NCBI GenBank assembly: GCA_009885805.1
Contig: VFJZ01000058.1
Coordinates: forward strand, 1 to 32,090
Direction: 5' to 3'
Source of the DNA: Actinomycetota bacterium
GTDB lineage: Bacteria; Actinomycetota; Thermoleophilia; Gaiellales; F1-60-MAGs149
DNA length: 32,090 bases
Shown here piece after piece: positions 1 to 11,808 of the stretch (the first letter of the stretch is position 1; every line of letters begins with the position of its first letter). The notes beneath the pieces are model-generated. The model worked only from the letters and a program-made list of their open reading frames with translations, had not been told where the DNA came from and made no database searches. Position numbers and translations under genes: made by a program.

Positions 1-461
1 AGGAACAGCGCGTACGTCTCGTCGACGACCTCGGAGATGCGCGCGTCGGGGCGATCGACCTTGTTGACGACGAGGATCACGCGCAGGTCGACCTCCAGCG
101 CCTTGCGCAGCACGAAGCGCGTCTGCGGCAACGGGCCCTCGCTCGCGTCGACGAGGAGCAACACGCCGTCGACCATCGTCAGCGCGCGCTCGACCTCACC
201 GCCGAAGTCGGCGTGGCCCGGCGTGTCGACGATGTTGATCTTCGTCTCGCCGTACCGCACTGCGGTGTTCTTGGCGAGGATCGTGATGCCCTTCTCGCGC
301 TCCAGGTCCATCGAGTCGAGGACGCGTTCGGCGACGTCCTGGTTGGCACGAAAGGCGCCCGTCTGCCAGAGCATCGCGTCGACCAGGGTCGTCTTGCCGT
401 GGTCGACGTGGGCGACGATGGCGACGTTACGGAGGTCGGCGCGTTGCTGCACGATCCTCAC
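1..461 (-). CDS. typA: GTP-binding protein TypA/BipA, N-terminal part (runs off left edge)
   Basis: This is the G domain of the translational GTPase TypA/BipA, which binds ribosomes and helps assembly and stress or cold adaptation. The visible 153 residues carry the P-loop AHVDHGKT (residues 17-24), the switch region [12 protein letters not shown] (about 56-67), DTPGH (79-83) and NKVD (133-136). The string around [13 protein letters not shown] is characteristic of TypA rather than EF-G or LepA. The GTG at 461 is chosen because AAGGGG lies about 10 nt upstream; a second in-frame GTG at 452 is possible. The C-terminal two thirds lie outside the window. It is divergently transcribed from the CBS gene. 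Confidence 0.96.
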
Positions 462-477
462 GGTAGCCGCGGACCCC

Positions 478-519
478 TTGCAAACGGCCCAAACACTCGT
501 ATTGTGAGATACGTGTATC
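478..519 (+). promoter_or_regulatory. Possible promoter and small palindrome between typA and the CBS gene
   Basis: TTGCAA (478-483) and TATTGT (500-505) are separated by 16 nt and could drive the CBS gene. Just downstream, GATAC-GT-GTATC (508-519) is a 5-bp inverted repeat that could be an operator for the divergent pair. Both calls rest on eye inspection only. Confidence 0.3.
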
Positions 520-527
520 AACCTGGG

Positions 528-815
528 ATGATCCGCGTACCCATCGCGACGACGCTCGGAGAGGTCGCCCGAATCATGGAACGCGAGGCCGCGAGCGCGC
601 TCGTGGTCATCGATGCCGACGACTCGCCCGTCGGCGTCATCACCGATCGCCATCTGCTCGCCGCGATGGCCGCCAGCCGCCATCCCGACCACGGCACCGC
701 CGCCTCCTGGATGGCACCCGTCGTGATCGACGCGGACGGAACGCGCACCCTGCCCGAGACGGATGCGGGCCGCAGGATCGGCATCCGCACGCGTGACCGA
801 GCCGAGTCGCGGTAG
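528..815 (+). CDS. Short CBS-domain protein, second CBS truncated
   Basis: The 95-residue product begins with a normal CBS motif: [29 protein letters not shown] style spacing, followed by a VITDRHLL segment (about residues 8-50). CBS domains usually sense adenine nucleotides and occur in pairs. Here the second repeat starts near residue 68 ([13 protein letters not shown]) but breaks off after about 25 residues into an Arg-rich tail, so only one complete CBS repeat is present. I see no continuation of the second repeat in another frame before 1038. The ATG at 528 starts the recognisable fold, although no clear Shine-Dalgarno precedes it; a GTG at 504 is an alternative. It may be a degraded remnant or a small single-domain sensor. 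Confidence 0.65.
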
Positions 816-1024
816 TTCGCGCAATTTGCGGCAGCCGGCCGTGACGGGCGCTTGACGGCCCCGTAGCGGGCCTGTACGTTTGTCCATGCACCGAGCACGG
901 AGCGCACGCCGACTCCGACCCGGGTGCCGAATCCTTCGGGGGACGGTACGCGAGTCGCAGACGGAGTGAGCCACCGGCTCGGTGCCTCGTTGTGCGGTCA
1001 TACGGCGTCGTCCGACTGCCGCCG

Positions 1025-1030
1025 TACACT
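1025..1030 (+). promoter_or_regulatory. -10 box TACACT of an apparently leaderless gene
   Basis: TACACT ends 8 nt before the GTG at 1039, with no Shine-Dalgarno between. The preceding intergenic stretch (816-1024) shows no other feature I can support. Confidence 0.45.
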
Positions 1031-1038
1031 CGGCTGGC

Positions 1039-1365
1039 GTGGGCCGCTTCGCCAACGCCGTGGAGGAGCAGTGTGCGCGGCTGCTCGATTTCTACGGTGT
1101 CGCGTGGGAGTACGAGCCCCGCACGTTCGACCTCGACGTGGACGACGAGGGGCGTGTGCGCGACGCCTTCACGCCTGACTTCTACCTCACCGAGATGGAT
1201 CTCTACATCGAGGTCACGACGATGCGCCAGACGCATACGACGCGGAAGCACCGCAAGGTGCGGCGGCTCGCGGCGATCCACCCCGAGGTCAGGGTGAAGC
1301 TGTGGTGCCGCCGCGACATCGAACGCCTCGGCGAAACCCACGGTCTCGAGGCCGGCGCGGCGTGA
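1039..1365 (+). CDS. Small PD-(D/E)XK-like protein of unknown role
   Basis: The 108-residue product has the look of a compact PD-(D/E)XK nuclease fold: an N-terminal helix with [13 protein letters not shown], then TPDFYL (PD at 46-47) followed by LYIEVTTM, with E58-x-T60 in the place of the usual E-x-K, and a basic stretch TRKHRKVRR. The lysine normally used in catalysis is replaced by Thr, so activity is uncertain. The GTG at 1039 is chosen because an upstream -10 box fits and because residues before it (from the ATG at 982) are low-complexity Arg-rich sequence. Its stop overlaps the next start by 4 nt (GTGA), so it is probably cotranslated with the phosphoribosyltransferase-like gene. I do not recognise a named family. 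Confidence 0.6.
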
Positions 1366-1913
1366 TCGCGAATCCCGGCCCGGTCGCGATCGACGCAGCG
1401 GCGGTCGATCGCCGCATCGCGGAGGTCGCAGCCGAGATCGACCACCGGCACCCGGCCGGGGTCGTGCTGCTCGGCGTGCTGCCGGAGGCCGGGCGGTTCA
1501 CCGAGGCGCTGCGTCAGCGGCTGACAGGCGGGGTCACCGTCGAGGCGATCACGGTCACCCGCTTCGGTTCGGGTGAAGCACGGGCGCGCCTCGTCCGAAC
1601 TGGCCGGGCGCCGCTCGCCGGACGAGCGGTTCTCGTCGTGACGACCATCATCGACACCGGCCTTCGCCTGCGATTCGCGGCCATGACCCTCGCGGCCGAG
1701 CAGCCGGCATCGATCGGCATCTGCGCGCTGCTCGACCGCCCGGACCGTCGCATCGTCGACCTGCCGATCGACCATGTCGGGTTCACGGTGCCCGACTGTC
1801 TGTTCGCCGGCTACGGCCTCGGCGGACCGGGCCTGGCCGAGCTCGCTGCCGTGCACTACCGCGACGCTGCCAACGCTGAACGGGCTCGCCGGTCGCATCT
1901 GCTGATCGCGTAG
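1362..1913 (+). CDS. Hypoxanthine-guanine phosphoribosyltransferase-like protein with altered PRPP loop
   Basis: The C-terminal half matches bacterial HGPRT closely: ALLDRPDRRIVDLPIDHVGF and PDCLFAGYGLGG correspond to the purine-specificity and hood segments of Hpt, which makes IMP/GMP from hypoxanthine/guanine and PRPP. However, the PRPP loop, normally V-E-D-x-x-D-T-G, reads V-T-T-I-I-D-T-G (residues 93-100). Both acidic residues that contact the ribose hydroxyls are Thr (94-95), while the general-base Asp98 remains. The N-terminal pyrophosphate loop, usually LKGS/LKGG, is LPEAG (40-44) and lacks the Lys. The 183-residue length is normal. It may have a changed substrate, a regulatory role or no activity. 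The GTG start overlaps the stop of the preceding gene. Confidence 0.75.
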   Translation: MIANPGPVAIDAAAVDRRIAEVAAEIDHRHPAGVVLLGVLPEAGRFTEALRQRLTGGVTVEAITVTRFGSGEARARLVRTGRAPLAGRAVLVVTTIIDTGLRLRFAAMTLAAEQPASIGICALLDRPDRRIVDLPIDHVGFTVPDCLFAGYGLGGPGLAELAAVHYRDAANAERARRSHLLIA

Positions 1914-4480: not shown

Positions 4481-4548
4481 TGTCGCAATGGTGCCGCACA
4501 CCTTTGCGACAGTGCCGTGTCGCAAAGGTGTGCGGCACCATTGCGACA
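4481..4548. repeat. Perfect 31-bp inverted repeat (paired 31-nt hairpin units), variant 1
   Basis: The left arm (4481-4511) and right arm (4518-4548) are exact reverse complements separated by 6 nt. Each arm is itself a hairpin: TGTCGCAA at the 5' end pairs with TTGCGACA at the 3' end, an A-A mismatch lies at positions 9 and 23, GGTG pairs with CACC, and the loop is five bases. A third unit lies at 11681-11711 and a related variant at 29655-29748. It lies between the convergent ends of the methyltransferase-like and LLM genes. No T-run follows, so it is not a standard intrinsic terminator, though it could still end or stabilise transcripts from both sides. The design resembles REP/BIME elements. 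Confidence 0.93.
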
Positions 4549-11680: not shown

Positions 11681-11711
11681 TGTCGCGAAGGTGTGCGGCA
11701 CGATTGCGACA
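11681..11711. repeat. Single 31-nt hairpin unit, variant 1
   Basis: It matches the right arm at 4518-4548 at 29 of 31 positions; the changes are A7 to G and C22 to G. As RNA the first change leaves a G-U pair, while the second opens the lowest pair of the inner stem. It lies between the 3' end of the PhzF-like gene and the 3' end of the opposing tRNA gene, the same kind of site as the other copies. Confidence 0.85.
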
Positions 11712-11735: not shown

Positions 11736-11808
11736 TGGGCGGTGAGGGCTTCGAACCCCCGACCCCCTGCTTGTAAAGCAGGTGCTCTGCCAGCTGAGCT
11801 AACCGCCC
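11736..11808 (-). tRNA. tRNA-Val, anticodon TAC
   Basis: Read on the minus strand, a full cloverleaf is visible: acceptor stem GGGCGGT paired with ACCGCCC, D-arm TAGCTCAGCTGGCAGAGCA, anticodon stem CCTGC/GCAGG with loop TTTACAA (anticodon TAC at plus positions 11773-11775), and T-arm with GGTTCGAAGC. The discriminator is A. CCA is not encoded, so it must be added by the nucleotidyltransferase. Confidence 0.96.

Follow-up and report, generated by a model that had tools for sequence, protein, structure and literature searches.

The locus

The window, by which we mean the whole analysed stretch of 32,090 nucleotides, comes from an actinomycetotal genome of the Gaiellales and holds near its beginning two overlapping genes. 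The upstream gene encodes a small PD-(D/E)XK-like protein, here called Dex, and the downstream one an HGPRT-like phosphoribosyltransferase (PRT), here called HPRT2. In what follows, G000 is the genome of the window, G001 represents another genus of the same family and G002 a third genus. The features are:

213..815, plus strand: ORF with a CBS domain, just upstream of Dex
982..1365, plus strand: Dex, small PD-(D/E)XK-like protein, 127 aa counted from the first start codon, conserved part from near 1045
1174..1257, plus strand: active-site stretch of Dex, with PD at 1174-1179, ExT at 1210-1218, K89 at 1246-1248 and K92 at 1255-1257
1362..1365, plus strand: GTGA overlap of 4 bp between the stop codon of Dex (1363-1365) and the start of HPRT2 (1362)
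1362..1913, plus strand: HPRT2, an HGPRT-like putative pseudoenzyme whose PRPP-binding side chains are lost (Pfam, NCBIfam, fold model, alignment)
1476..1499, plus strand: loop I, rewritten (VLPEAGRF), with Pro-Glu where Lys-Gly/Ala stands; P41, E42 and R45 are common to G001
1635..1676, plus strand: loop III (VVTTIIDTGLRLRF), with Thr-Thr for Glu-Asp (1641-1646) and Arg for Thr102
1713..1823, plus strand: base-binding segment, residues 118-154, of which 31/37 are identical to G001

The 4-bp overlap suggests that Dex and HPRT2 are translationally coupled, as a sequence-only reading of the window had proposed, and the pair turned out to be both real and conserved. The order CBS-Dex-PRT is also found in G001. 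The CBS ORF has one CBS domain only and an Arg-rich tail, and it may be truncated or frame-shifted.

Elsewhere in the window, positions 4481-4548, between two convergent ORFs, form a perfect 31-bp inverted repeat with a 6-bp loop (TGTCGCAA...TTGCGACA) which looks REP-like. A 22-base half of this repeat occurs at 52 places in the genome with at most three mismatches, its own two included, and its reversed control at none; the halves form at least eight opposite-strand pairs starting 28 bp apart. One half (two mismatches) lies at 11681-11702, 33 bp from a tRNA-Val gene (tac; 11736-11808, minus strand).

Residues lost and kept in HPRT2

The HPRT2 gene begins with GTG and encodes 183 aa in an open frame; its translation contains, in order, the stretches VLPEAGRF, VTRFGSG, VVTTIIDTGLRLRF, ALLDRPDRR and VGFTVPDCLFAGYGLGG. 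The protein passes the cutoff of the phosphoribosyltransferase family PF00156 (37.7 versus 26.3 bits) and stays far below that of the NCBIfam HGPRT equivalog TIGR01203 (82.3 versus 150 bits), a model which all 58 scanned PRTs matched at E up to 1e-5. Solved HGPRTs align to it by sequence at E 1e-21. Its AlphaFold2 model, built from an alignment of 58 sequences, has a mean pLDDT of 95, and all 50 PDB matches shown by Foldseek were HGPRT-type enzymes (E 2.5e-18 to 1e-15), so the relationship to HGPRT is not a chance one. The alignments for the structure models contained 58 of 95 non-redundant PRT rows and, for Dex, 53 of 74.

A useful reference is the Hpt-1 protein of B. anthracis (PDB 6D9Q-S). 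According to PMC6783271, ppGpp binds to its loop III, at the site that also takes PRPP, by way of the Glu99 and Asp100 side chains and the backbone amides of Asp103-Thr107; the 3' phosphates of ppGpp are held by Arg165 together with a Mg ion, and the base is contacted by Lys131. By motif alignment these residues correspond to Thr94, Thr95, Asp98...Arg102, Ala159 and Arg126 of the window protein. The two proteins thus share the type I PRT fold and the catalytic Asp and DTG of loop III; they differ in that the window has Thr-Thr, Arg, Ala and Arg for Glu99-Asp100, Thr107, Arg165 and Lys131, a rewritten loop I and a TIGR01203 score below the cutoff.

How unusual these changes are can be seen in a comparison table with one row per distinct Dex core, which holds 110 Dex sequences, 109 of them with a PRT (for L115, L132 and L141 this PRT, some 1.2 kb upstream of Dex, could be an ordinary hpt). 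At positions 94-95 the 107 paired relatives outside the window's family have ED in 91 cases, EN in 4, DA in 4, DE in 3, and DC, DN, EG, EE and QD once each. The VTTIIDTG loop of the window, with Thr-Thr for the Glu-Asp pair of VEDxxDTG, is just as the sequence-only reading had described it, and its statement that the pyrophosphate-loop Lys is missing was equally correct: Pro stands at the expected Lys site of loop I, where 105/107 relatives keep Lys or Arg. Further losses are the loop-III Thr, now Arg102 (Thr in 104/107 relatives, Ser in the other 3), the C-terminal Arg, now Ala159 in both the window and G001 (Arg in 104/107), and the Asp of GYGLD, now Gly, which is also absent from 29 of the 104 relatives that have a residue at this column. 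The catalytic Asp98 is kept in all 109 paired sequences (107/107 outside the family), and the window retains the DTG. The purine-specificity segment had been called well kept, which is true of its identity to the nearest relative (31/37) and untrue of two contacts: the base-contacting Lys is Arg126 and the stacking Phe is Leu. Arg is also found at the former position in 96/107 relatives and Leu at the latter in 45/107.

The paired PRT of G001 has the loop VVAAVIDTG, with AA for Glu-Asp, and the same other losses as the window. P41, E42, R45 and R102 are present in both proteins and in none of the 107 other paired relatives. At least 85% of the relatives agree at 47 columns, of which 30 are retained by the window and 29 by G001. 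A manual count gives 13 that are changed in both, namely 6/10 ligand-contact columns versus 7/37 others (Fisher p 0.017, with the contact set chosen after the alignment had been seen). Only the window's family has lost both acids together with the other side-chain contacts. Milder changes of the acidic pair occur in other paired PRTs, 16/107 of which depart from ED, versus 0/11 canonical hpts of the order (12 rows before the exclusion of L021, a PRT of the paired type from a genome in which Dex is 2.5 kb distant from it). The variants include VDA (L099, L102, L124, L128), VDE (L120, L125, L129), VDN (L076) and VEN (L010, L017, L057, L085).

Three cases with H, Q or R at N90 of Dex had raised the suspicion that damage of the PRT loop co-varies with the KNRK motif of Dex. 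This idea was dropped because H or R also occurs beside VED loops (L115, L119, L126, L142) and VDA, VDE, VDN and VEN loops occur with a normal KNRK.

The window protein is an HGPRT homologue but should not be named HGPRT, since it lacks the acidic pair, the C-terminal Arg and the base Lys and does not reach the equivalog score. An accurate name would be 'HPRT-like pseudoenzyme paired with PD-EXX-K-like protein'. A weak sequence match (E 0.00067) links it to human PRTFDC1 (2jbh), an HPRT paralogue which is thought to be without normal salvage activity and in which the catalytic Asp is changed and the acidic pair kept, the reverse of what we see in HPRT2. We know of no nuclease partner of PRTFDC1.

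Dex, the upstream nuclease-like protein

Seven residues, E28, P65, D66, E77, T79, K89 and K92, are invariant in all 110 Dex sequences. The model of Dex has a pLDDT of 83.5, and its order of strands and helices fits the PD-(D/E)XK nucleases (restriction-endonuclease-like fold). A profile of Dex matches T7 endonuclease I (3cae) at E 5e-6, the Dex of one relative matches PHROG 9019 at 2.9e-8, and members of the family match phage resolvase and endonuclease families. The only Pfam match of the window's Dex, PF05367 (phage endonuclease I), scores 19.2 bits, below the gathering score of 29.1; this family was matched by 20 of 53 Dex sequences at E up to 0.1, and none of the 53 matched any Pfam family better than its best value, 7.9e-5. 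Like T7 endonuclease I and the phage Holliday-junction resolvases (PF05367, PHROG 9019, 945), Dex has PD and a second acidic residue; it differs from them in its score below the gathering threshold, in having ExT instead of ExK and in its linkage to hpt.

The nearest relative of Dex cannot be named from the fold alone. Foldseek found nothing under E 0.001 (best E 0.12), and VIA-align listed Bax1, I-Bth0305I, VRR_NUC, Vsr, TnsA, Hjc and others between Z 4.6 and 7.2, with many PD-(D/E)XK nucleases at Z 5-7.2. Chance matches also fall in this range, and rows for mitoribosomal proteins (Z 8.2, 7.5 and 6.8) are tied with the nucleases. A known anti-phage system was also dropped as a candidate: in PADLOC the PRT had no match, and Dex matched PD-DEXK profiles only weakly (best E 8.7e-5, L163).

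The sequence-only reading had noticed that Dex lacks its catalytic Lys. There is indeed no Lys at the ExK position, which is Thr79 in 110/110 sequences, but the view that this marks a dead enzyme is not supported: the replacement is family-wide, and the invariant K89 and K92 sit in the model on the next helix, 83-99. A comparable arrangement is described in PMC551604 for the COG4636 nucleases (Tt1808, 1wdj), in which the catalytic Lys stands on the adjacent helix 16 residues past the Glu (K127, E111) and which its authors term PD-EXX-K; in Dex this spacing is 12 (K89) or 15 (K92). According to PMC2940758, an arenavirus endonuclease and other viral cap-snatching endonucleases likewise have the Lys on that helix. 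Among the structural matches of Dex, 1wdj ranks 40th (Z 4.5, 4.2 Å over 88 residues). Dex differs from COG4636 in being paired with hpt, and the latter's own Pfam family, which we take to be PF05685, is not among the Pfam matches of Dex at E 0.1. Because the loss of the ExK Lys is family-wide and the two invariant helix Lys resemble PD-EXX-K, Dex is probably an active nuclease.

Pairing and breadth

How general is the partnership? Among the best 80 of 498 Dex loci confirmed in named genomes, a selection which favours close relatives, 74 have a PRT gene on the same strand at most 200 bp downstream. Two of the other six have a PRT further downstream, three, all from Acidimicrobiia, have hpt about 1.2 kb upstream, and one has none in its flanks. 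By their titles, these best 80 belong mostly to Thermoleophilia, to Gaiella/Gaiellaceae/Gaiellales or only to Actinobacteria/Actinomycetota, and the rest include some Anaerolineae, Acidobacteria and Acidimicrobiia and one deltaproteobacterial MAG. Some MAG labels are probably wrong, judged from sequence: L096 'Chloroflexi', L098 'Acidobacteriota' and L128 'Burkholderiales' carry Thermoleophilia-like Dex and PRT. The phylum search found a PRT just downstream of Dex in all 20 best loci. Other families of the phylum contributed 19 further Dex loci (among L164-L183, picked for long frames), in which hpt lay 1.2-1.8 kb upstream in 11, just downstream in 4 and nowhere within about 2 kb in the remaining 4. 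The upstream arrangement resembles that of L115:5257-8435, where the order is MerR, hpt, bifunctional-nuclease domain, Dex and GcvT-like. Dex itself is present in 83/199 genomes of the class (E 1e-3) and in 159/396 genomes sampled across the phylum (E 1e-5). At least two PRT-profile matches (E 1e-12) were found in 17/18 re-searched genomes, and the Dex-linked PRT is therefore usually an extra copy. At the window, the two genes are adjacent, Dex has all the invariant residues and, on the tree, the PRT groups with paired PRTs of its order. No nuclease paired with an HPRT appeared in the titles and abstracts searched, which cover part of the literature.

The neighbourhoods vary. At L130:6434-7378, L137:3901-4875 and L140:1530-2480 Dex carries a cytidylate-kinase-like domain (PF13189) fused to its front and is followed by the PRT; in L113, L131 and L139 a separate gene before Dex encodes such a domain, again with the PRT after Dex. 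This domain ties Dex to nucleotide chemistry. The fusions come from MAGs labelled deltaproteobacterial, acidobacterial and Acidimicrobiia. The flanks of L079 (Gaiella) look unrelated (FBPase, M23 peptidase, CcmF), and in L161:569-2435 an RNase HII gene lies directly 5' of Dex-PRT.

The family of the window

Dex is found in three of the 16 genomes of the family, G000, G001 and G002; the other 13, which belong to genus g4, all lack it. The paired PRT is carried by G000 and G001, in both of which its frame is open and the gene directly follows Dex. A second, canonical hpt, which the sequence-only reading had advised looking for, does exist in the window's genome on another contig (G000:C20, loop VEDIVDSG). 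The other PRTs detected in the family, a single one in G001 and in each of 10 g4 genomes, have EDIVDSG loops and the base-site Lys. In G002 the active-site residues of Dex are intact; the 1 kb downstream of it contains no PRT, and a search of this 70%-complete genome at E 1e-8 found none either. As L109 also has no PRT in its flanks, Dex can do without an adjacent PRT and may be independent of its partner.

In a midpoint-rooted tree of 58 PRTs (short search, SH-aLRT support) the window and G001 proteins form a clade (99) whose sister is G036, with the loop VDC (93). It belongs to a starred set made up of 26 paired PRTs; the 7 canonical hpts, all unpaired, form one branch (97) outside that set. 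Since the canonical branch is itself surrounded by paired PRTs from other phyla, HPRT2 is not shown by the tree to be one old paralogue outside Thermoleophilia.

Relatives with normal VED loops had been expected to mark the window gene as a single degraded copy. Such relatives exist, Glu-Asp being kept in 91/107, but the conclusion is ruled out by G001, which belongs to another genus and has AA at the same site and the same 13 conserved columns changed. A broken frame is ruled out too: it is open in both genomes, and codon positions 1/2/3 differ 58/54/96 times over 183 codons. For this one pair, and with an approximate method (NG86), the PRT has a dN/dS of 0.48, Dex one of 0.44 and the canonical hpt one of 0.23; when codon pairs are shuffled, pN/pS is 1.23. 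The PRT value is twice that of canonical hpt, as relaxed constraint would give. Between G000 and G001 the base segment is 84% identical and the rest of the PRT 47%. An equally skewed identity was seen in 23 of 1864 other pairs of similar overall identity, these pairs not being independent, and the segment is generally better conserved than the remainder of the protein (mean 67.5% versus 49.8%).

Discussion

Our preferred, still tentative reading, which relies on sequences and predicted structures, is that Dex and HPRT2 form a module in which HPRT2 would be the purine-ligand-binding partner of Dex and, in the window's family, a pseudoenzyme. Dex would be a T7-endonuclease-I-like PD-(D/E)XK phosphodiesterase of the PD-EXX-K type, with E28, D66 and E77 as putative metal ligands and the catalytic Lys relocated to the next helix as K89 or K92, and it would probably be active on some nucleic acid. 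HPRT2 would work together with Dex, a contact that we infer along with the relevance of purine ligands. In most lineages, where the PRPP site is kept, an intact HPRT2 could bind PRPP, IMP/GMP or (p)ppGpp and so set the activity of Dex by the purine-nucleotide state. In the window's family the side chains for ribose, pyrophosphate and its metal are gone, and the protein most likely cannot run the PRPP reaction. It may persist as a pseudoenzyme partner with its fold and purine-side segment kept and its ligand altered or absent. Nucleotide sensing or an altered substrate, as had been suggested for the pair, would be compatible with the data.

Could HPRT2 instead be dispensable in this family, its catalytic residues drifting on the way to loss while Dex stays, and with no role beyond folding? 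This slow decay is the chief rival of the pseudoenzyme partner; we consider it less likely, yet several observations speak for it. The loops form a graded series from Glu-Asp in most relatives through VDC in G036, which adjoins the family on the tree, to AA and TT in G001 and G000; G002 keeps Dex without an adjacent PRT; and the g4 genomes have Dex in 0/13 and only canonical EDIVDSG loops in their 10 detected PRTs. To 37 paired rows of the order, the window and G001 proteins are more distant in the PRT (34-35% identity, mean among rows 57%) than in Dex (50-52%, mean 66%), and the doubled dN/dS of the PRT points the same way. Against decay, that ratio is still near the one of Dex, the base-side segment is 84% identical between genera, both of them have the same new states P41, E42, R45 and R102, and the fold model reaches pLDDT 95.

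These shared states, absent from the 107 other paired relatives, and the kept Asp98 and DTG would also suit a protein that is still a catalyst but acts on an NMP or a different phosphorylated donor, its acidic, metal-binding PRPP site having been remodelled and made more basic (R45, R67, R102). We regard such an enzyme as quite improbable: loops I-III are less conserved between the genera (7/11, 8/19 and 12/16) than the base segment (31/37), and to our knowledge no type I PRT functions without the acidic residues and a metal. About equally improbable is a mere operon of convenience, in which HPRT2 would be a second purine salvage enzyme with a base preference shifted by the Lys to Arg change and Dex would do unrelated nucleic-acid work. 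The paired PRTs do mostly have Glu-Asp (91/107), the catalytic Asp (107/107) and the base-site Arg (96/107), and the linkage is loose or absent in several other classes. Against this, the linkage is kept across records of several phyla in varied neighbourhoods, and a PRT without PRPP contacts remains beside Dex in two genera.

The preferred reading of a module with a pseudoenzyme partner can be extended to a bolder one, which we think rather doubtful. Dex and HPRT2, with the cytidylate-kinase-like part in some lineages, might be a purine-responsive nuclease module in which a PD-EXX-K nuclease has the PRT as its ligand-sensing subunit, the ligand being PRPP, a purine nucleotide or (p)ppGpp. An end point would then be seen in the window's family, where catalysis has been shed and a base or nucleotide is bound in a rebuilt pocket.

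A purine salvage enzyme is already presented in PMC6783271 as a (p)ppGpp target via the same PRPP loop. If a second HPRT is tied to a nuclease-like protein by linkage, the cleavage or repair of nucleic acids would be connected to purine status. There is also a risk of misannotation, because proteins of the HPRT2 type match HGPRT models and could be named as working enzymes. The window's family may be seen as a natural experiment: its PRPP contacts are lost while the partnership is kept, which would make the catalytic and structural roles of HPRT2 separable.
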